A stretch of 64,000 bases of DNA from contig JAUZSN010000002.1 in NCBI GenBank assembly GCA_030949405.1, positions 2,714,553 through 2,778,552 on the forward strand, in the 5' to 3' direction. Positions 520 to 20,855 of this stretch are shown here, one piece after another; position 1 is the stretch's first letter, and the number at the start of each line of letters is the position of its first letter. Both the position numbers and the translations under genes were made by a program. This stretch comes from Methylococcales bacterium. GTDB taxonomy: Bacteria > Pseudomonadota > Gammaproteobacteria > Methylococcales > Methylomonadaceae. The notes below the pieces were generated by a model. That model was given only the letters and a program-made list of their open reading frames with translations, did not search any database and was not told where the DNA came from.

Positions 520-2372
520 CATTTTTCAACATATTCAGGCCATGTTTTTCCATAAGGAATTAACTCACTTGAACATGAAACAATAGTTAAATAACTTCCA
601 TCTAAATGTCTTTTTAGTCGAGTTAGACCTGTATATATTAGAGCCAATGATTTTTTATCCACTGATTGTCCAATAAAAATTACAATAGCTCTTGACTCCC
701 ATCCTTTAAAGCTATGAAGTGTAGTTGCTTTGATTCGTGAATCACCCATATAAAAACCCATTTTTTTTCTTCTTGATTCGCGAGTATCATTAGAAAATGT
801 ATGACATGAGTTAACTCCTTTAGAACCTAGTTCAGAGATTACCTCAAGACCTTTACTATTGGTATCAGATAAAAATGTTATGTCAGGTATAGAAACTAAA
901 TCTGACTCTGCATCTGTAGCTAATAAAAATAATTCTTCCCTACATACCTGAGCGACTAAATTAGACGAAGTGTGTACCCACTTTAAAGCACATGGAAACA
1001 TATTTAATTCACTTTGTTCCGATACAGGTAAATTTACAGTTTCCTTAAGTAAAAATAATTCTGCAAATTTTCTAGAGTACTCAAGGGCTAATAATGGTAA
1101 TCTATAGCTGATTTTTAGTTCCGCCCAGTCACCACGAAAACCAGCTCCATTCATTGCTTCATCTGTCCATGCACTTGCCTTATCATAAATATCTTGAGTT
1201 GCATCAGCAACAAGTAGCATTTCACCATCTGTTTTACATACTTTTCGTAAAAGCTCCCACCAACTGGGCATAAAGTCCTGCCCTTCATCCACTAAAACAG
1301 CGTCATATTTTTCTGTAATATTGGATGAGTCATTTAGTATTGATGAAACAAGGCTGGGTAACTCTAGACTAAGAACCTCATTTACATTTTCATTATTCGC
1401 CCAAATATTTTTATACTCTTCTTCAAAGTCATTTTCTTGGCATACCCTTTTACACCAAAAATGAAAATTAAGCCATGTAATATCTTTACGTGTTTTTCCC
1501 GCTGACTGAGGGCAACGAACTGAAATATCCATAAGATAATGAAGCAGGGTAATATTAAAAGTAACAACTAAAACCCTTTTACCCTCCCCAAGTAGCTCAG
1601 CTGCTCTTGCTGCTAAGATTAGTGATTTACCTGACCCAGCAGCTCCTTTAATTCTGCGGTAACCTGACTTTGTTCGTGACTTAACAAATGATATTTGTGT
1701 TTGATCAAGATCCAAAGGCTGCCTCTGAGTTATCGAGAAATCAGGTTCTATTAGCCAATTTCTCAAATCTTTAGCTAACTCATCATTCATAAATTTTGAA
1801 TATCGCCTAAAACCTTCTGGAAATACAGCATTTATATTTCCAGATTGAACAGAGTTTGCACCTGTTAATGGGTTATAGCTTGGATATTTCTCCATCCCTC
1901 TATAATTTAAACTTTTAGCAAATAATTGTTTTATAGATTCATCAGTAGCAAAAGGAAATATAACTCCAGCAGTTATAGCTGCAAACCCTGCCTTACCATC
2001 AATACGAGGACAATACAATTCATGGATTTCTTGCTTATACCTACATATTTTTTCTATAGGATTCTGGCTTTGCAATGAGAACTGCTTTCCATCCTTTTCA
2101 CCTATTAGTATTGGTGACTTTAAAGTGCGCTCTACAACGCTATACTTCATGGCTTGTAAATTCCAATCTTTTACTTCAAAAACAGCTATCCCAACTTGTG
2201 GATGTAAAAGTACAAAATCTGGACGTAAACCATTCAAATGAGGTTGAAGATAAATTTCCCATTCTATCGGTAGATGTTCATTAAAAAGATCAAATACAAT
2301 TCTTTCACCTTCAGTTAATGGTTGGCGTAATTTATCAAACTGATCTAATGGTGGAGAAATAAATCTAGACAA
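519..2372 (-). CDS. NERD nuclease-domain / superfamily 1 helicase protein (cassette gene)
   Basis: This 617-residue protein probably acts on DNA as a nuclease-helicase. Residues about 20-130 resemble a nuclease-related (NERD) domain, with the stretch RPDFVLLHPQVGIAVFEVKDW. A UvrD-like helicase core follows: Walker A KGAAGSGKS near residue 244, a Walker B-like DEGQDF near 357, and a C-terminal motif TTLHSFKGWESRA near 557. The start is TTG at 2372 with GGGAG seven bases upstream; no ATG fits better. The stop TGA overlaps the attC at 422-519 and the start lies about 20 bases after the attC core at 2392-2398, the usual tight packing of an integron cassette. NERD-helicases occur in phage-defence loci, so a defence role is likely but inferred. 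Confidence 0.85.
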   Translation of the reverse strand: MSRFISPPLDQFDKLRQPLTEGERIVFDLFNEHLPIEWEIYLQPHLNGLRPDFVLLHPQVGIAVFEVKDWNLQAMKYSVVERTLKSPILIGEKDGKQFSLQSQNPIEKICRYKQEIHELYCPRIDGKAGFAAITAGVIFPFATDESIKQLFAKSLNYRGMEKYPSYNPLTGANSVQSGNINAVFPEGFRRYSKFMNDELAKDLRNWLIEPDFSITQRQPLDLDQTQISFVKSRTKSGYRRIKGAAGSGKSLILAARAAELLGEGKRVLVVTFNITLLHYLMDISVRCPQSAGKTRKDITWLNFHFWCKRVCQENDFEEEYKNIWANNENVNEVLSLELPSLVSSILNDSSNITEKYDAVLVDEGQDFMPSWWELLRKVCKTDGEMLLVADATQDIYDKASAWTDEAMNGAGFRGDWAELKISYRLPLLALEYSRKFAELFLLKETVNLPVSEQSELNMFPCALKWVHTSSNLVAQVCREELFLLATDAESDLVSIPDITFLSDTNSKGLEVISELGSKGVNSCHTFSNDTRESRRKKMGFYMGDSRIKATTLHSFKGWESRAIVIFIGQSVDKKSLALIYTGLTRLKRHLDGSYLTIVSCSSELIPYGKTWPEYVEK

Positions 2373-2391
2373 TGGTATGCTCCCTGTTGTG

Positions 2392-2493
2392 ACCTAACGA
2401 CCAAATCACATGCCGTTTAAAGTGGCGGTTTTTTTTGCGGCTCTTTGCAAAAAAATGACGCTTTAAACGGTCAGGTGGATTTGATTGTTATGC
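2392..2493 (-). other. attC: attC recombination site (between NERD-helicase and R-M cassettes)
   Basis: A second 102-bp hairpin of attC type with outer boxes ACCTAAC (2392-2398) and GTTATGC (2487-2493). The arms (ACCAAATCACATGCCGTTTAAAG against CTTTAAACGGTCAGGTGGATTTG) differ in sequence from the other two sites but keep the same architecture. The left box matches the NERD-helicase cassette end in complement. The right box TGCATAAC (minus strand) is the exact complement of the R-M cassette start GTTATGCA at 8087-8080. Confidence 0.87.
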
Positions 2494-2539
2494 ATTATAT
2501 AGCACATAAACCTATAAAAATAATTTTCATTTTTATGTA

Positions 2540-2550
2540 GACAATAAGTC
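2540..2550 (+). promoter_or_regulatory. single C-box-like operator upstream of the methyltransferase
   Basis: GACAATAAGTC has the GAC-N5-GTC form of the two operator halves in front of the controller gene (8004-8029). It lies 24 bases before the methyltransferase ATG and just upstream of GATAAT (2561-2566), a possible -10 element. In C-controlled R-M systems the controller can also act on the M promoter. One half-site is weak evidence, so this stays tentative. Confidence 0.4.
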
Positions 2551-2858
2551 ACTTATGTGGGATAATTCAACCCATGAAATTTGCAGACTTTTTTTCAGGT
2601 ATCGGTGGTTTTAGGCTCGGTTTAGAGAGTATAGGCTGGCAATGCGTATTTTCAAATGATATAAATTTGGATTCAAATGCGATTTACCAGAGTAACTTTT
2701 CAACAGATGAATTTTCAAATAATTCAATTGTTGATATTAAAATTAACGATATACCAGACTTTGATGTTTTTTGTGGTGGCTTTCCATGCCAACCTTTTTC
2801 TATTGCTGGAAAAAGAGAAGGGAAAGCTGATGATAGAGGCAATCTTTTTGAACATAAT

Positions 2859-3977
2859 AGACTTGTTCTTTAAGAAGAAGTTAATATATCATGTTAAAAT
2901 TCCATAGGATAGCCGCTAAAAAAGAAAATAAATCTTTTACACCTTCTTTTTTATTTCTAAACTTGTCAACTAGGCATCTATATCTTTTCATTCCACCGAT
3001 TACATGCTCAACAATGACTCTTTCACGACTCATCTCTTTGTTTTCTTTTTTTTGATTTTCAGTTAATGTTGGGTTTGGATTATGCTTAGATTTATTTGGT
3101 TTTTTATGAGGAATATTTACCGAATTAGTTTTATATTCATTATTAAACCCCAAATAACCTAAATCAATAAATATATTAAAATTACTAAACCAATTTAATT
3201 CTGGATTAAATTCTTTTTTAAACATTCCATAATCATGATTTTTACCTGGAAAACTAACCCCAATATATAAAATTAAATGACCTAAAGAAGCTATAGTGGT
3301 ATTTTTAATTGTATGCTGTTTTTTTTACCACTGTAAAATTAATTTTGTTCTTCATAGTCACTAGGGCGTTGTACAGCACGCTCTGTAGCATCTATTATCA
3401 ATGTTTGAACTCCGCCAAAAGCCTGCTGCATTTCTTCAGGGGTTGAAAAACTTGTTGCAGGTAAAACATTAAATATATCTAACGTCTTTATTAAAATTGG
3501 AAATAATTTGTATACATGAGTATGGGCGCATGATTTATTCATATTAAAAGAAAACCCTAAGTGATCGAAAGTAGAATAACACTTCATATAATTTAATATA
3601 AATAATAATTTGTCTGCGGGTGTTTTTAATGTGCTATCTAAACCACTACCGTATTTTCTTTCTTTATTTTCATGTTTTTCTTTTTGATCTTCAATAAGGG
3701 TCTTTTCAAATAGAGATAATAGTAAAATAAAATGTTCTGTTTTTAATCCTGTTAAAGCTCTTAACTGTCTATCATCATAAATTCTTGGTAAAATTTCTTT
3801 TATTTTCATGTTATACTTTGATTTTTATTTTTTATAGAAATTTATTATAAAGCTTATTTATTATTTTTAATAATTTAATTTAAAGTTTATTTATTAGGCT
3901 GTATCAACTGATTGTGAGTGTTATCAAGTATATATAAGCAATTGATTTTAATATATTTTATTTAGAAGAACAAGTCT
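2859..3977 (-). mobile_element. IS5-like insertion sequence, copy 1
   Basis: A 1119-bp element ends in perfect 12-bp inverted repeats, AGACTTGTTCTT on the left and its complement on the right. It interrupts the m5C methyltransferase gene. Two further copies (5294-6412 and 6495-7613) have the same length and almost the same sequence. It encodes a DDE transposase on the minus strand in two frames. Reconstruction of the target gene suggests a TA duplication at this copy. Short AT-rich duplications and the two-frame layout suit the IS427-type branch of IS5, but the exact group is an inference. Confidence 0.92.
2881..3809 (-). pseudogene. IS5-like transposase, copy 1 (two frames, nonsense mutation)
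   Basis: The N-terminal part (3339-3809) has a helix-turn-helix-like region and the first catalytic Asp in LIIDATERAVQRP. The C-terminal part (from about 3330 to 2881) has the second Asp in FIDLGYLG and the Glu in VEHVIGGMKRYRCL. The frames meet at a run of eight A (coding strand), so a -1 slip there would join them as SGKKKQHTIKN. This copy has TAA at 3339-3341, before the slip site, where copy 2 has GAA. The stop would block the fusion, so this copy is probably inactive. Confidence 0.82.
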
Positions 3978-13024: not shown

Positions 13025-15265
13025 ATGACAGGAGATAGACCTAAGATCCTACAAATTTCATTATCAATCCTATTTTTTGTTTTTGCATTCGTATCCTCTG
13101 TTATTTTATTTAGCTATGATAAAAATGACAGTGCGTGGACATCAAGTGATGGCTCACTCGAAATTAATAATATTTTAGGCACTATGGGCGCGTGGGTTGC
13201 TGATATTACCTTAAGTCTCTTTGGTTTTATGGCCTTTTTATTTCCTTTTATGCTTGCATGGCATAGCTATTTATTATTTCAACGCAAACAACCTAAAGGC
13301 CCGCTAAATACATTATTGTCAGCGCTAGGATTAGCAATTACAGTACTCGCTGGGACCGCTATTTTTTACCTCTATATTCCAAGTTTATCGATTGAATTAC
13401 CTCACGGACGAGGAGGCATTTTAGGTGAAATGGCAGGCGATAGTATGTTATTTCTTTTCAGTGATGGCTACGCTCCTCGTTTAATACTGGGTATTTTTAT
13501 TTTAGGGATGACCATTTTTAGCGGCCCCTCTTGGTTTTCAATTATGGATTGGGTTGGGAAACACACCTGTCAAGTAGCGATCAAATTACATCACGCTATT
13601 ACTGATCGTTCAGAAACGGATAATTCTGACGAGGCTTTTTCCAGTCTTTATGAGGAACCATCGTTGGATGCTAATAAACCCAATGACTTCCCCCTTAAAA
13701 AATCAAAACCTAACAATAACACTAACAAATCCGCTAAAATTTCCAAAAAACCAACCCCTGTTTATCATGCGGCTTTGCCAGATGCGTCTTTACTGGTTAA
13801 ACATAAGAAAAAAATTAAAGGTTATTCAAAAACAGAATTAGAAACCATTGCTGATTTAGTCGAAACTGTATTAGATGAGTTTAATATCTCTGTAAAGGTC
13901 GTCGATAAATTTCCAGGGCCTGTTATTACACGCTTTGAATTACTCTTAGCCCCTGGAATAAAGGTAAGTAAGGTCAGTGGGTTAACCAAGGATATAGCAC
14001 GAGGGTTATCCGTTCAAAGTGTGCGTATCGTGGATGTTATTCCAGGAAAGCCCGTTATTGGACTCGAAATCCCGAATAAAGAACGCGAAATAGTGTCATT
14101 TAATGAATTAGTTAATTCAAAAGAATTTTCTGATGCAAAATCCCCGCTTACGTTAATTTTAGGTAAAGATATTGCATCAAAACCCGTCATGGCTGATTTA
14201 GGAAAAATGCCCCACTTATTAGTCGCAGGAACAACAGGCTCAGGAAAGTCAGTGGCCATTAATACCATGATTTTAAGCTTATTATTTAAATCCAGCCCGA
14301 AAAAAATACGGCTCATTATGATTGACCCCAAGATGCTGGAGTTATCTGTTTATGAAGGAATTCCCCATTTATTAACGCCTGTTGTTACCGACATGAAAGA
14401 AGCCAGTAATGCGCTACGTTGGGCGGTTGCTGAAATGGAACGCCGCTATAAATTAATGTCTAAACTCGGCGTTAGAAATTTACAAGGCTTTAATCATCAA
14501 ATAGAACGCGCTATTGAGCAAGGTCATCCCATTCTTGATCCTTTATTTCAACCTGACCCACTGATCGAAGGAAAGCAACATAAACCGTCACTTGAAGCCT
14601 TACCTCATATTGTCATTGTTATTGATGAATTAGCTGACATGATGATGATTGTGGGTAAAAAAGTTGAGGAACTGATTGCTCGTTTAGCTCAAAAAGCACG
14701 TGCCGCTGGGATTCATTTAATTTTAGCCACACAACGCCCCTCTGTCGATGTCCTAACAGGTTTAATTAAGGCGAATGTTCCAACACGAATATCATTTCAA
14801 GTGTCATCACGTATAGATTCACGAACTATTTTAGATCAAAGTGGAGCCGAAGGTTTATTAGGCAATGGTGATATGCTTTATTTGCCCCCAGGAACAAGTA
14901 TTCCCATACGCGCGCATGGAGCCTTTGTCGATGATGATGAAGTACACAGCGTGGTTGAGTTTTTAAAAACCACCGCACCCACCAATTATTTGACTACTAT
15001 TTTAGACGAATCGAAAGAACCCATTCCAGGGTTAGATAAAATGAATATAACGGCATCAGACTCTGAAATCGATGTTTTATACGATCAGGCGGTTGCTTTT
15101 GTTATTGAGAGTCGAAAAGCCTCTATTTCTAGCGTTCAAAGACGATTAAAAGTCGGTTATAACCGCGCAGCAAGAATGATTGATGAAATGGAAGAGGCGG
15201 GTGTGATTAGTGGGCCTGAGCATAATGGTTCTCGTACCGTTCTCTCGCCCGCGTTAGATGAATAA
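13025..15265 (+). CDS. ftsK: DNA translocase FtsK
   Basis: A 746-residue cell-division DNA pump. The N-terminal 170 residues contain four or so membrane helices that anchor it at the septum. A short linker rich in Lys, Asn and Pro follows (about 195-250), much shorter than in E. coli FtsK. The motor then has Walker [10 protein letters not shown] near residue 402 and Walker [14 protein letters not shown] near 530. The last 70 residues are the gamma winged-helix domain ([22 protein letters not shown]), which reads KOPS sequences to orient translocation toward dif. ATG at 13025 is the first in-frame start that keeps the membrane segment. galU follows after 34 bases. Confidence 0.96.
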
Positions 15266-15299
15266 AACAAAAAATAGATATTATAAACAAGGAATTTAA

Positions 15300-16178
15300 A
15301 TGCAACAAAAAATAACAAAGGCTGTTTTTCCAGTCGCAGGATTGGGAACACGATTTTTACCAGCGACTAAAGCTAACCCAAAAGAAATGCTATCTATCGT
15401 TGATAAGCCCTTAATTCAATATGCTGTCGAAGAAGCCATTGACGCAGGTATTGAAACGCTTATTTTTATTACAGGTCGGAATAAACATTGTATTCAAGAT
15501 CATTTTGATAAAACCTATGAATTGGAAGCAGAATTAGAAAAAAAAGGGAAGTTTGAACTGGTTAATCAATTAAAAAACATCCTTCCCTCTCATGTTTCTT
15601 GTGTTTTTATTCGTCAAAATCAAGCGTTAGGGTTAGGTCATGCGGTGAATTGTGCAAAACCTATTATTGGTGATGAACCTTTTGTGGTGTTATTAGCCGA
15701 TGACTTAGTAAGAAAGAATGGCGAAAAAGGCTGTACGCGCCAATTAATTGAATTATTTGATGAACAGAACGCCAGTATTTTGGCCGTAGAATCCGTTGCC
15801 AAAGAAGAAACGGATAAATACGGTATTGTTTCCATCCAGCCACAAAATGAAAGGGTGGGGAATTTAGTTTCCATTATTGAAAAGCCAAATCCTGAAGAAG
15901 CCCCCTCTAATCTTGCCGTTATTGGTCGCTATATTCTGACTCCAGCAATCTTTAAACACCTTGATTCTTTGGGAAAAGGACGAGGGGGCGAAATTCAACT
16001 AACGGATGCCATTGCAAAATTATTACAAGAAGAATCTATATTAAGCTATAAATTTGAAGGAAGACGCTACGATTGTGGCTCTAAATTAGGCTATTTAATT
16101 GCTAATGTTGAACACGCTTTATTACACCCTGAAATTAAAACAGAGTTCTTAGCTTATTTAAAAAATATTGACTTATAA
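15300..16178 (+). CDS. galU: UTP-glucose-1-phosphate uridylyltransferase
   Basis: A 292-residue nucleotidyltransferase making UDP-glucose from UTP and glucose 1-phosphate for cell-envelope sugars and related polymers. The nucleotide-binding signature FPVAGLGTRFLPATKANPKEML occupies residues 10-31. VVLLADDL near 130 carries the metal-binding Asp pair, and EKPNPEEAPSNLAVIGRY and GRRYDCGSKLGY are typical of GalU. Length matches the family (about 290-300). AAGGAAT precedes the ATG. It follows ftsK by 34 bases on the same strand and may share its transcript. Confidence 0.95.
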   Translation: MQQKITKAVFPVAGLGTRFLPATKANPKEMLSIVDKPLIQYAVEEAIDAGIETLIFITGRNKHCIQDHFDKTYELEAELEKKGKFELVNQLKNILPSHVSCVFIRQNQALGLGHAVNCAKPIIGDEPFVVLLADDLVRKNGEKGCTRQLIELFDEQNASILAVESVAKEETDKYGIVSIQPQNERVGNLVSIIEKPNPEEAPSNLAVIGRYILTPAIFKHLDSLGKGRGGEIQLTDAIAKLLQEESILSYKFEGRRYDCGSKLGYLIANVEHALLHPEIKTEFLAYLKNIDL

Positions 16179-16327
16179 CTAATTGATAAATAGTAAGTTT
16201 AAAAAACCATATTCTCGTAAATTATTGATAAAAAACAACTTTTTTTATTAAAAATGAATCTGCAAAGCAATGCAGCTTACTGTAAAATCCCTGCCTTGTT
16301 TAAATATACTTGTCAGGAATCGCATTA

Positions 16328-18880
16328 ATGTCCGCATCATTATCACCTACGCCAAACGCTCCTATTACTGAAATTTCCTTACAAAATGCATCTATAGATA
16401 TTTGGGAAACTAAATACCGTTTAAAAACTAAAGAGGGGAACCCTGTTGATAAAGATATTGATGCCACTTATCAACGGATAGCTAAAGCACTCGCGGCGGT
16501 TGAGAAGACCAAGGATTTACAAAAGAAATATTATCAAGAGTTTTTATGGGTTTTACGACAAGGGGCGATTCCTGCGGGGCGTATTATTTCTAATGCAGGG
16601 GCTGAAAAACATAAGCCTGCGACTTCGACGATCAACTGTACTGTTAGCGGAATCATCGAAGATAGCATGGATGATATTTTAAATAAAGTTCATGAAGCGG
16701 GGTTGACATTAAAAGCTGGGTGCGGAATCGGTTATGAATTTTCAACCCTTAGACCCAAAGACGCGTACGTTTCAGGCGCAGGTGCGTATACTTCTGGGCC
16801 GTTGTCATTTATGGATATTTACGACAAAATGTGCTTTACAGTGTCTTCGGCTGGCGGACGACGGGGCGCGCAAATGGCAACTTTTGATATTTGCCACCCT
16901 GATGTTATTGAGTTTATTCGTGCAAAACGCGAAGATGGGCGTTTACGTCAATTTAATCTTTCTTTATTAATTACCAGCGAATTTATTGAAGCGGTTAAAA
17001 ATGATTCTGCTTGGCCATTATCTTTTCCTGTTAGAGCAAAAGAAGTTAAACAAGATAATTTAGATTTAAAGGATGTTGAGAAAATTATCTGGCGTGATTT
17101 ACCTAATACAGATCAATATGTGAATAATGAAGCGGGGTTAGTTGCTTGTCGAATTATTAAAACCATTCCCGCTAAACGTTTATGGGACATTATTATGTCC
17201 TCAACCTATGATTATGCCGAGCCAGGTTTTATCTTAATTGATAAAGTCAATGAAATGAATAATAACTGGTATTGCGAAAATATTCGTGCGACTAATCCAT
17301 GTCTTGCCGAAGGTACACTCGTTTTAACGCCAACGGGATTACGAAAAGTTGAGACTATCATAGAAGGGGATACTATTTCGACTATTGATGGTGAAGGAAT
17401 AGTTAAAACCGTTGAAAAGCATAACAATGTAGCGGTTTTACGAGTTTCATTTGCTAACGGTAAAACATTACGTGCAACAAAAGCCCATATCTTTCATACG
17501 CTGGATGGAAAAGGTTCAATTAATAAAAATAAACGCTTAGAAAATTTAAATGTAGGTGATTTAATTAGAACCTATGATAAAGATAATTTATATTCAACGA
17601 GTATTACTAAAATTGAAGCGGATGGCTTTAGTAATGTTTATGATTTGTATGAGCCTAAATCAGATACTTGGATTACAGAAGGTATTGTTAATCGTGGTTG
17701 TGGTGAACAAGCCCTACCCCCATACGGAAGTTGTTTACTTGGCTCAATTAACCTAACTCGTTTCATAAAAAAACCGTTTACTAATGAATCATCCTTTGAC
17801 TGGGATACTTATCGTAAAGCAATCCGAATTTTTACCCGCTTGTTAGATAATGTCGTCGAAATAAACGGCCTGCCTTTAGAAAAACAACGCGAAGAAATTA
17901 TTTCAAAACGCCGTCATGGCATGGGTTATTTAGGCTTAGGCTCAACGGTCACCATGTTGGGAATGAAATACGGCGATGAACAATCACTTACGTTCACCGA
18001 AGAAATTACAAAAGTGTTAGCGATTGAAGGCTGGAAAGAAGGTCTCGCTTTGGCTAAAGAAAAAGGCACTGCTCCAATTTTGGAAAAAATATTTACGGTA
18101 ACGGGGGAGATGTTACATAAACGTCCTGAAATGGTAACGGATGGTTATAACGTCGGTGATAAAATTGCAGGTAAAGTATTACATGCTAAATATAGTCGTT
18201 ATATGCAGCGGGTTGCTGAGGCAGAGCCTGAATTAGTCGCCGAATTGATTGAAATAGGAGCGCGATTTACTCACGCAACCAGCATAGCGCCCACCGGTAC
18301 AATTTCTTTATCATTAGCCAATAATGCCAGCAATGGCATTGAACCCAGTTTTGCCCATCATTATTCGCGTAATATTATTCGTGAGGGTAAAAAATCAAAA
18401 GAGAAAGTGGATGTCTATTCATTTGAATTATTGGCTTACCGTGCCTTAATTAATGCCGAGGCGATGCCTTATAGTGATAACCCAGACCATCAATTACCTG
18501 ATTATTTTATTTCTGCCGACCATGTTACTCCTAAACAACATGTCGATATTCAAGCCGCTGCACAAAAATGGATAGACTCTTCAATTTCAAAAACCGCCAA
18601 TGTACCCACCGATTATCCTTATGATGATTTCAAAGATATTTATCAATATGCCTATGAAAAGGGTTTAAAAGGTTGTACCACCTTTCGTTTTAATCCTGAA
18701 GTCTTTCAAGGTGTATTAGTCAAAGAGGCTGATTTAGAAAATACCACGTATCAGTTCACCTTAGAAGATGGGACTAAAGTTGAATTAAAAGGCAATGAAG
18801 ATGTTGAATATGATGGTGAAATACACTCAGCAGCAAATTTATTTGATGCCTTGAAAGAAGGCTATTATGGAAAATTTTAG
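16328..18880 (+). CDS. nrdJ: Adenosylcobalamin-dependent (class II) ribonucleotide reductase with embedded Hint/intein domain
   Basis: This enzyme reduces ribonucleotides to deoxyribonucleotides using a B12-generated thiyl radical, so it works with or without oxygen. Visible features are the N-terminal GRIISNAGAE region, the STINCTVSGI segment with the first redox Cys, SSAGGRRGAQMATFDICHPD, the NPC/GEQ radical-cysteine site, HATSIAPTGTISLSLANNASNGIEP, and a C-terminal tail. The NPC and GEQ parts are separated by a 133-residue Hint-like insertion (17300-17698). Without it the protein has about 717 residues, a normal size. I chose ATG at 16328, with AGGA ten bases upstream, over an in-frame TTG at 16310. 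Only excision of the insertion could restore the catalytic cysteine loop. Confidence 0.92.
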   Translation: MSASLSPTPNAPITEISLQNASIDIWETKYRLKTKEGNPVDKDIDATYQRIAKALAAVEKTKDLQKKYYQEFLWVLRQGAIPAGRIISNAGAEKHKPATSTINCTVSGIIEDSMDDILNKVHEAGLTLKAGCGIGYEFSTLRPKDAYVSGAGAYTSGPLSFMDIYDKMCFTVSSAGGRRGAQMATFDICHPDVIEFIRAKREDGRLRQFNLSLLITSEFIEAVKNDSAWPLSFPVRAKEVKQDNLDLKDVEKIIWRDLPNTDQYVNNEAGLVACRIIKTIPAKRLWDIIMSSTYDYAEPGFILIDKVNEMNNNWYCENIRATNPCLAEGTLVLTPTGLRKVETIIEGDTISTIDGEGIVKTVEKHNNVAVLRVSFANGKTLRATKAHIFHTLDGKGSINKNKRLENLNVGDLIRTYDKDNLYSTSITKIEADGFSNVYDLYEPKSDTWITEGIVNRGCGEQALPPYGSCLLGSINLTRFIKKPFTNESSFDWDTYRKAIRIFTRLLDNVVEINGLPLEKQREEIISKRRHGMGYLGLGSTVTMLGMKYGDEQSLTFTEEITKVLAIEGWKEGLALAKEKGTAPILEKIFTVTGEMLHKRPEMVTDGYNVGDKIAGKVLHAKYSRYMQRVAEAEPELVAELIEIGARFTHATSIAPTGTISLSLANNASNGIEPSFAHHYSRNIIREGKKSKEKVDVYSFELLAYRALINAEAMPYSDNPDHQLPDYFISADHVTPKQHVDIQAAAQKWIDSSISKTANVPTDYPYDDFKDIYQYAYEKGLKGCTTFRFNPEVFQGVLVKEADLENTTYQFTLEDGTKVELKGNEDVEYDGEIHSAANLFDALKEGYYGKF
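17300..17698 (+). other. Mini-intein / Hint domain inside nrdJ (non-canonical C-terminus)
   Basis: The 133-residue insertion starts at a cysteine in NP-CLAEGTLVLTPTG (intein block A) and has a block B TxxH in ATKAHIFHT. The segment SNVYDLYEPKSDTWI looks like block F. No LAGLIDADG or HNH homing endonuclease is present, so it is a mini-intein. It is placed exactly before the radical cysteine: the host sequence would become NP-CGEQ after splicing. The C-terminal end reads EGIVNRG-C. Canonical inteins end in His-Asn before the nucleophile, so splicing chemistry is uncertain; a bacterial intein-like domain is possible. Confidence 0.78.
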
Positions 18881-18945
18881 ACCTTCAAACGTAAAAACTA
18901 TTTTTTAAGTTCTATTTAAAAAATAGAGCCAAACTAAATTCGCAC

Positions 18946-18972
18946 CCTAAGATGGGTTATGTCCATCTTAGG
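18946..18972 (+). terminator. Rho-independent terminator after nrdJ
   Basis: CCTAAGATGG (18946-18955) and CCATCTTAGG (18963-18972) form a perfect 10-bp stem with a 7-base loop, followed by a T-rich stretch (TAATTTTCCTTTT). It lies 66 bases after the nrdJ stop. The T-tract is interrupted, so efficiency is uncertain. Confidence 0.65.
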
Positions 18973-19066
18973 TAATTTTCCTTTTAATTTGTTTCTTTGT
19001 AAGTAATTTGCTACAATTAAAAAAAATTTCGCCGTTACAAATTTGCCGTTAATTTAAATAGAGACT

Positions 19067-19672
19067 ATGATTAAACTATTAACCTTATTGACTATTACTT
19101 TTTTAGTCGGTTGTACTGGGGCACCCAAAACAAAACTAACGCAAGTATCCTCATTAAAACCAGTAACATGGGAAACGCCTTTTTTTGTAAAAAAGCCCTA
19201 TAACAACCCATTAAAATGCTCAATTACCCCACTTACAGCAGAAGAAAAATCAGTAAAGCGATCCATTGAATTATTAGAAAAGTTTTTTGAAGAATGGAAA
19301 GCGGTTAAACATCGAATGGGGGGCTTAAGTAAACGAGGGGTCGATTGCTCAGGCTTTGTTCAATTAACATTTTTAAATCAATTTGACCTTAAAGTGCCGC
19401 GCACAACAGGTTTACAAGTCAAGCTAGGCAAGTCGATTCCAAAAAATAAGTTGAAAACAGGTGATTTAGTTTTTTTTAAAACCAGTCCTCGGGTTAGGCA
19501 TGTCGGTATTTATTTGAAAGATAATATCTTTATCCATACGTCATCAAGCAAAGGCGTGATGAAATCAAAGTTAAACAAGGGATACTGGGCTAAAAAATAT
19601 TGGAAAGCTAAACGCGTTGCCTTTAAAACGACCGATTTCTTTAGTCAATTGATTCGCCGCGAGCAAGTTTAG
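19067..19672 (+). CDS. NlpC/P60-family lipoprotein peptidoglycan hydrolase
   Basis: A 201-residue lipoprotein: MIKLLTLLTITFLVGC ends in a lipobox Cys at residue 16, so it should be anchored in a membrane facing the cell wall. The C-terminal 125 residues are an NlpC/P60 cysteine peptidase. The catalytic Cys lies in GVDCSGFVQLTFL, the His in RHVGIYL, and a further polar partner in FIHTSS. These enzymes cut D-Glu-diaminopimelate or stem crosslinks; Spr/MepS-like proteins are the nearest type. The last 32 bases overlap the convergent UbiH-family gene. Confidence 0.88.
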   Translation: MIKLLTLLTITFLVGCTGAPKTKLTQVSSLKPVTWETPFFVKKPYNNPLKCSITPLTAEEKSVKRSIELLEKFFEEWKAVKHRMGGLSKRGVDCSGFVQLTFLNQFDLKVPRTTGLQVKLGKSIPKNKLKTGDLVFFKTSPRVRHVGIYLKDNIFIHTSSSKGVMKSKLNKGYWAKKYWKAKRVAFKTTDFFSQLIRREQV

Positions 19673-20855
19673 GTAATTTTCCTTCAAGGCCCATTGCCGC
19701 TTTCATAATCTTATTTTTAACAGGTAAAACCCGCTCCGCTAATCCTAAGCCTAAATTCCTTAAAAATTTAATTGGAACTACTTTATTACTAAAAACACGA
19801 TAAAAAATATCCATAACGGTCATCATTTTTAAATTTTCATTGCGACGTAAGGATTCATAACGCTTTAAAATCGTTACGTCAGCAATATTTTCGCCGTTTT
19901 TAGCCGCATCAACTAACACTTCGGCCAACGCAGCCGCATCCAACAAGCCAATATTAACCCCCTGCCCTGCTAATGGGTTAATCATGTGCGCGGCATCACC
20001 GACTAAAGCAACGCCTTGTTTAACATAACTTTGAGCATGTTGCCGCCTTAATGGAAAACTGGCAACGCCTAGAATTTGTGTGATTTTTCCAAGACAATCA
20101 GGAAAAGCGGCTATTAATTCCTGTCTTAATTCAGGATAAGATAAAGCCTTCAATCGCCGTACTTCATCTGCTGAATTATACCAAACAACCGAACCATAAT
20201 AATCGGTCAGCGGTAAAAAAGCTTGAGGACCTTCGGGGGTAAAACGCTGCCAAGTAATATCTTGTTGTGGATAATCGGTTTCAACATAAATAACCATCGC
20301 ATGTTGCTGATAATCCCAACTGGTGACACCTAAACCAACACTTTGTCGTACCCGTGACTGACCGCCGTCTGCGGCAATAAGCATTGTTGTCTCTAATAAT
20401 TGGCCATTATCAAGTTCTAATTGGGTTTCTGTGAGTGAATAATCTATTTTTTTAATACCGACGGGCGCAAATAAGCTAATATTTTCAAATTGCTGTAATC
20501 GTTCCAATAAAGCAAGTTGTGTTATTCGATTTTCAACGATAAACCCTAATTCAGAATGCTTAATCGCATCACTGCAAAATTCAGTATCACCCGTTGTTTC
20601 AAAAACACGCATACGTTTAAATGGACAATAACGTCGCTTTAAAATACCTTGCCAAGCCCCGACCGTTTCAATAATATTTTTAGAGGCGATACTTAATGCG
20701 GAAACCCGCAAGTCATGAGGCTGATCCTCTGAAAATTCATCAGGAAGGTATTTTTCTATAATAGCAACATTTAAATTACTACCGCCTAGGCCACACGCAA
20801 CAGCGGCACCAACCATGCCACCACCGACAATGATAATATCAAATTTTTGAGTCAT
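19641..20855 (-). CDS. UbiH/UbiF/Coq6-family FAD-dependent hydroxylase
   Basis: A flavin monooxygenase, probably hydroxylating a ubiquinone precursor. The dinucleotide fold is FDIIIVGGGMVGAAVACGLG at the N-terminus; the second FAD signature GVALVGDAAHMINPLAGQGVNIGLLDAAAL lies near residue 300. I start it at ATG 20855 (MTQKFD), leaving the FAD motif 10 residues in; longer reading to 20918 adds 21 residues of unlikely sequence. The family has several members that act at different ring positions, and sequence alone does not tell which one this is. The 3' end overlaps the lipoprotein gene by 32 bases, tail to tail. Confidence 0.87.
   Translation of the reverse strand: MTQKFDIIIVGGGMVGAAVACGLGGSNLNVAIIEKYLPDEFSEDQPHDLRVSALSIASKNIIETVGAWQGILKRRYCPFKRMRVFETTGDTEFCSDAIKHSELGFIVENRITQLALLERLQQFENISLFAPVGIKKIDYSLTETQLELDNGQLLETTMLIAADGGQSRVRQSVGLGVTSWDYQQHAMVIYVETDYPQQDITWQRFTPEGPQAFLPLTDYYGSVVWYNSADEVRRLKALSYPELRQELIAAFPDCLGKITQILGVASFPLRRQHAQSYVKQGVALVGDAAHMINPLAGQGVNIGLLDAAALAEVLVDAAKNGENIADVTILKRYESLRRNENLKMMTVMDIFYRVFSNKVVPIKFLRNLGLGLAERVLPVKNKIMKAAMGLEGKLPKLARGESID

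Follow-up and report, generated by a model that had tools for sequence, protein, structure and literature searches.

Class 1 inteins end in a residue that can cyclize: an Asn, Gln or Asp C-terminus is described as omnipresent in the class by a 2020 paper (PMC7664689), and a review adds Glu to these C-terminal residues (PMC4031507). Some class 1 inteins, CIV RNR and Pab Pol II among them, have Gln, Asp or Glu at this end and likewise splice without a terminal Asn, but their last residue is still cyclizable (PMC4031507), which Gly is not. The element considered here is a 133-residue insert in the class II ribonucleotide reductase NrdJ of a Methylococcales bacterium (Methylomonadaceae), encoded within a 64,000-nucleotide stretch of contig JAUZSN010000002.1 (assembly GCA_030949405.1, positions 2,714,553 to 2,778,552; hereafter the window), and its last residue is Gly. 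The insert is probably a functional intein of a distinct clade, in which the first steps would be normal and C-terminal cleavage would proceed without Asn cyclization. What the analysis establishes is the sequence and its conservation, the grouping, the predicted fold, the selection and an apparent lack of a backup reductase; splicing and every chemical step are inferred. A conserved Gly-terminated clade in two bacterial phyla and in viral contigs contradicts the Asn/Gln/Asp rule of class 1 and predicts a new final step; if true, one and the same fold can accommodate a rebuilt version of the final, irreversible splicing step.

The NrdJ-1 split intein, which is named after a reductase gene, ends in His-Asn. 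NrdJ-1 shares its fold with the window intein (PDB 8ubs, Z 19.5, 132 residues aligned, 14% identity) but differs in being split. Bacterial intein-like (BIL) domains likewise share the Hint fold (2lwy, Z 18.7), and in type A BILs a free amine attacks the N-terminal thioester (PMC4031507). By contrast with the window intein, the BILs have no +1 nucleophile, with type A retaining His-Asn and type B being without block G (PMC4031507).

The NrdJ locus and its insert

The NrdJ open reading frame occupies positions 16310-18880 of the forward strand, as do all features below, and starts with TTG at 16310. An AGGA at 16315 precedes the ATG at 16328, which is the likelier start and would give an 850-residue precursor. 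The N-extein (16328-17299) ends in R-A-T-N-P, and the C-extein (17699-18877) begins with the radical Cys (+1) of C-G-E-Q; the extein is that of a class II ribonucleotide reductase, with 544 bits against TIGR02504 NrdJ_Z (cut-off 400). The insert (17300-17698, 399 nt, Cys1 to Gly133), an endonuclease-free intein consisting of a Hint domain, separates N-P from the radical Cys of N-P-C-G-E-Q. It interrupts the N-x-C-x-E catalytic loop of NrdJ, to which this Asn and Cys belong. Removal of the insert would leave the loop intact, with N-P/C-G-E flanks that match those of congeners. Two genomes of the same genus (G002 and G005) have an empty site, N-P-C-G-E-Q, with extein identities of 88.6 and 88.8%; three others searched (G001, G003 and G004) have an unreadable NrdJ site.

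The preliminary description of this DNA had proposed a 133-residue Hint-like insertion just before the NrdJ catalytic Cys, with a block A Cys, a block B TxxH and an ending other than His-Asn, and each of these points holds. The insert scores above the cut-offs of Hint_2 (33.6 bits, cut-off 28.4) and TIGR01445 intein_Nterm (26.7 bits, cut-off 24.5) and below that of Intein_splicing (25.3 bits, cut-off 35.8). Cys1, the block A nucleophile, is encoded at 17300-17302 and the block B T60-x-x-H63 at 17477-17488. Block F/G (V113-Y-D-L-Y-E-P-K-S-D-T-W-I-T-E-G-I-V-N-R-G133, 17636-17698) includes Asp115 at F4 (17642-17644), Asp122 at F13 (17663-17665), a position that is His in most canonical inteins, Trp124 at F15 (17669-17671) and, in place of His-Asn, Arg132-Gly133 (17693-17698). 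The insert ends in I-V-N-R-G, as compared to I-V-V-H-N in class 1 inteins, and its V-N-R-G directly adjoins C-G-E-Q. As this ending aligns with the canonical 21-residue block F/G without a gap, it is a set of substitutions and not a truncation. The same description had suggested seeking a matching ending in relatives and had named the absence of a predicted Hint fold as a refutation; a whole family of Gly-terminated inteins was found, and the fold is predicted with confidence.

An AlphaFold2 model of the window intein, built from an alignment of 12 family sequences, has a predicted local distance difference test (pLDDT) score of 90.3 and a predicted template modeling (pTM) score of 0.83, pointing to a confident intein (Hint) fold. 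From end to end, this model can be aligned with solved mini-inteins, including those of Ssp DnaB (Z about 21, residues 1-141; for the M86 variant 6fre, Z 21.0, root-mean-square deviation 1.7, 135 residues aligned) and gp41-1 (Z 20.6). A second mini-intein of the family, from a virus, gives a less sure model (pLDDT 83.7, pTM 0.78).

In terms of intein class, the window intein has the Hint fold, Cys1, block B Thr and His, and Cys+1 of class 1, and departs from it in the last residue, which is Gly in the window and in the 33 inteins of the clade. The His residues at G6 and F13, common but not obligatory in class 1, are replaced by Arg, Lys or Gln at G6 (31 full-length inteins) and by Asp at F13 (33/33). 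These features suggest that, until the final cleavage, the window intein behaves as class 1 inteins do. Other assignments were considered and rejected: a class 2 intein would carry Ala1 instead of Cys1 or Ser1; a class 3 intein would have no nucleophile at residue 1 and would have a Cys at F4 (the WCT motif), compared to Cys1 and an Asp at F4 in 31/31 here; and an internal Cys acting as in class 3 is at odds with Cys1 being the only Cys in 5/7 mini-inteins. A BIL domain is ruled out by Cys+1 and by an alignable, conserved block F/G. Cyclization of an upstream Asn is rejected because position -3 is Ser in 28/31 and Asn in 3/31. No Gly-terminated intein is named in the titles and abstract openings returned by intein searches of open full-text papers, a scope that leaves InBase and most older and subscription papers outside.

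Distribution of the Gly-terminated inteins

From the fetched loci, 72 distinct reductase-site inteins were parsed, with Gly (33), Asn (26), Gln (7) or Asp (6) as the last residue; the loci were fetched with queries of the Gly family, and so the Gly share is not a natural frequency. Parsing required C-G/S-E after the junction, a block-F-like motif and a start of N-P-C or N-P-S; the count of Cys+1 and the C and E of C-G-E are, therefore, set by construction. Eleven of the 72 have no readable N-terminal end and were omitted from the trees. Random sequencing or frameshift error as the source of the Gly ending is ruled out, since the ending is present in 33 distinct inteins, which also speaks against chance.

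Members of the Gly-terminated group come from Methylomonadaceae, from Chloroflexota and from contigs of uncultivated viruses. In a scan of genomes, two records of methanotrophs of the Methyloprofundus kind (L032 and L033, 71 and 68% identity) and five of Chloroflexota had the ending, and scans of viral contigs yielded further members. Within the bacterial family of the window, strong matches to the insert are found in 3/237 genomes, including that of the window, and weaker matches in four genomes (again including that of the window) are to GyrA and DnaB-like inteins. The GyrA intein of the window genome (G000:C2:1466910, L109) has a canonical V-H-N/C end, in contrast to the NrdJ intein. Among 369 genomes of the window's class, four match the C-terminal profile, strongly only in the window's own; the three weak gammaproteobacterial matches (24-26 bits) end in SHN/S and lie in a DnaB-like gene. 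In the class of G342, a genome placed in Chloroflexota by way of the phylum of L036, 54 of 396 genomes match this profile at E 1e-4; in 15 of these the match is strong (69 bits or higher at best, with the next at 46 bits).

In cultured phages (tblastn against 50,697 records), inteins were found in reductase, terminase, portal, helicase and other genes, and the four reductase inteins with an ending read end in HN, GN, GN and SQ. With the 34-residue C-terminal piece at E up to 5, one cultured phage record alone was matched, and it ends in HN; the endings read in these phages are those of the four reductase inteins only. The plasmids searched gave no match. A viral polymerase-like gene (L059) carries an intein-like V-Y-D-L-Y-E-P block without the Asp-Trp pair, followed by V-G-D and then Thr.

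Conservation and grouping

Fifteen residues are invariant in the 31 full-length Gly-terminated inteins (C1, T10, G13, G31, T60, H63, F65, G109, V113, D115, E118, D122, W124, V130 and G133), as is the flanking C-G-E, of which the C and E belong to the parsing pattern. The last two residues of these 31 are Arg-Gly (29), Lys-Gly (1) or Gln-Gly (1). Asp at F13 is found in 33/33 Gly-terminated inteins compared to 0/39 of the others, where this position is occupied by His, Asn, Leu or Ile. In 11 members fetched by patterns or a profile that do not single out F13 or G7, Asp-F13 and the terminal Gly are together in 11/11. The mean entropy of block F/G in the Gly-terminated inteins is 0.63 bits versus 1.81 overall, and in 27 Asn/Gln-terminated inteins the same block has 1.17. 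The parts needed for the N-terminal thioester are all present, and the trio of Asn cyclization (F13 His, G6 His and G7 Asn) reads as swapped as a set for Asp, Arg and Gly.

A tree built without the F13 and G7 columns places the Gly-terminated inteins on one side of a branch, with support of 87/96 and in 88% of 200 bootstraps, and a tree of the splicing domain only agrees (SH-aLRT 80). The intein tree is unrooted, with no outgroup, and came with program warnings about long branches that join, unusual composition in eight of the Gly rows and sparsely filled columns in the mini-inteins. As the Gly-terminated inteins sit on one side of a branch, the swap to Asp-F13 with a terminal Gly is one old event. 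It is tempting to suppose that F13 gained its carboxylate as the cyclizing one at the terminus disappeared, with the direction from Asp to Gly being a guess on an unrooted tree.

Two other groups use the same site. The Asp-terminated inteins of Chloroflexota (L077-L080, L144 and L145; S-L-D/C or S-F-D/C) share with the window intein the Trp at F15, which is present in the six parsed Asp-terminated inteins and invariant in the Gly-terminated ones, and the pattern T-W-x-T-N/E-G-x-V/C-S. They differ in ending in a cyclizable Asp and in having Leu or Ile at F13, and, as the tree is unrooted, their joining with the Gly group carries no information and they are not placed as nearest relatives. The inteins ending in T-G-N or T-G-Q from the bacterial family of the window (L004, L006, L007 and L015) also have no penultimate His; by contrast, they end in Asn or Gln, have Asn at F13, measure 374-378 residues and lie on the other side of the tree. 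L091 is a further member of the T-G-N/T-G-Q group at this site, with Asn at F13.

Selection, transfer and the requirement for removal

Of the Gly-terminated inteins, 24 have an endonuclease-sized insert, with both LAGLIDADG-type motifs in 20/24, and seven are endonuclease-free; the tree shows three changes of this label, with the Hint domain kept. Purifying selection acts on the small forms that have no endonuclease, the ratio of nonsynonymous to synonymous substitution rates (dN/dS) being 0.20-0.23 in three Methylomonadaceae mini-intein pairs and 0.09 in an Anaerolineae pair (L138/L140). For pairs that include L032, the N-extein dN/dS is void due to a second intein there; for the Chloroflexota pairs, whose frames run up to about 2,100 residues, the N- and C-extein values may be distorted in the same way, and the intein values alone were used. 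Two intein pairs have saturated synonymous divergence (dS) and a further two exceed 2, so that the ratios of 0.02-0.03 carry little meaning.

Between L032 and L033, dS is lower in the mini-intein (0.25) than in the C-extein (1.64). Their third codon positions are 83-90% identical inside the mini-intein; most windows of the extein have 33-77%, apart from two at 83 and 90%, and the identity falls directly after the Gly-Cys junction. This is consistent with recent shared transfer or conversion of the endonuclease-free intein tract.

The insert places the Asn and Cys of the N-x-C-x-E loop 133 residues further apart in the precursor. Unspliced NrdJ should be dead because the insert separates these catalytic-loop residues, and its removal is presumably essential. 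The preliminary description had framed the choice as unusual chemistry or a second reductase; that framing stands, and for its second branch no other reductase was found in the window genome (96% complete), where searches gave one match to PF02867 (no second large subunit) and none to PF13597 (class III NrdD), PF00268 (class I small subunit) or PF17975 (the RNR_Alpha domain of monomeric class II enzymes). The same four family searches revealed no other reductase in G061 and G062, which carry the same mini-intein. Since NrdJ is the only reductase detected in these three carriers, survival would be a readout of splicing and the question is directly testable. Of the Chloroflexota carriers, G065 has a single large subunit and one PF00268 match (76 bits). 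The NrdJ of L032 has, at another site, a second intein of about 436 residues (about 2090-3400; K-A-G/C...V-I-H-N/C-G-I-G-Y-E-F) with a canonical His-Asn; the presence of canonical and Gly-terminated inteins in one polypeptide accords with a gene product that depends on splicing.

Proposed mechanism

In the proposed mechanism, Cys1, aided by T60, H63 and probably D115, would form a thioester with the N-extein as in class 1, and Cys+1, the radical Cys of the reductase, would accept or ligate the N-extein. The Gly133-Cys134 bond would then have to be broken without cyclization of Asn, Gln or Asp, as Gly has no side chain to cyclize. The cutting group has most likely been relocated to Asp122 at F13, with assistance from W124 and R132; in known inteins, F13 normally assists the C-terminal cut (PMC4031507).

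Two routes can be envisaged. In Route A, the somewhat likelier of the two although less probable than not, transfer to Cys+1 would give a branched intermediate, with Asp122 then acting on the carbonyl of Gly133 either by direct attack or by activating water. In Route B, a less probable variant that is compatible with the data, an N-to-S acyl shift at Gly-Cys would release the amine of Cys, which would then accept the N-extein from its thioester. N-to-S transfer is intrinsically favored at Gly-Cys junctions (PMC3277902), and a similar attack of an amine on a thioester is proposed for type A BILs (PMC4031507). A third possibility is that Cys1 attacks the Gly carbonyl after transfer. On balance, the evidence leans towards a further intein class, in which a carboxylate moved to F13 (Asp), or else a second N-to-S shift, breaks the Gly-Cys C-junction in place of cyclization of the last residue. 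Such inteins could give tools in which the excised intein bears a plain Gly carboxylate and not a succinimide.

Alternative explanations

Several observations weigh against a functional intein with a new final step. Much of the family was fetched with block F/G patterns, which makes the conservation of this block partly a matter of construction, and Asp-F13 with terminal Gly arose once, such that their correlation counts as a single event and is no proof of any chemistry. The Methylomonadaceae mini-intein evolves faster (dN/dS 0.20-0.23) than the C-extein (0.03-0.08). The finding of no backup reductase is limited by the completeness of the carriers (96% for the window genome, apparently 70% for G061 and apparently 99% for G062), and the argument from it is not valid for every carrier, as the Chloroflexota genome G066 has a second NrdJ gene; the inteins of its two genes (L039 and L046) share the site but are not alike, with AHQ as the end of one and SRG as that of the other. 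A dead intein, which stays in place while NrdJ tolerates it or is not needed, is very improbable. In its favor, the residues of Asn cyclization are absent and the mini-intein has a higher dN/dS than its C-extein, but the intein is under purifying selection, has invariant catalytic residues and has kept its splicing domain through three endonuclease changes; moreover, the three carriers have no detected backup reductase and the insert splits the N-x-C-x-E catalytic loop.

The functional intein must also be set against partial or assisted reactions. A Hint domain that cuts one or both ends without ligation, leaving NrdJ to work as two associated pieces, is improbable: split reductase genes do exist in phages (Aeh1 nrdA-a/-b and phiYS40 nrdJ-a/-b; PMC3653736) and N-terminal cleavage needs just Cys1 and block B, both of which are intact, yet a double cut would still require Gly-Cys cleavage without Asn, and the catalytic Asn and Cys would end on separate chains. 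Type B BILs, which cleave only, are, in addition, without block G similarity (PMC4031507), whereas block F/G is conserved here at a fixed spacing to Cys+1. Rather more improbable is a division of labor in which the intein makes the thioester and a host protease or other factor completes the cut after Gly. The Arg-Gly, Lys-Gly and Gln-Gly endings (29, 1 and 1 of 31) could form a recognition site, and Gly is a common P1 residue; however, family members occur in viral contigs as well as in two phyla of bacteria, and the factor would then have to be widespread. Removal at the DNA or RNA level, or translational bypass, has a negligible claim. Rfam at gathering score gave no match in 15000-20000 and no repeats of at least 14 were found in 17100-17900, while the frame is open throughout and encodes a protein under purifying selection with an intein fold.

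Flanking signals

In a scan of the window in which promoter and terminator counts were about at chance level, a 12-pair stem-loop at 18946-18972, past the NrdJ stop codon, is a possible terminator.

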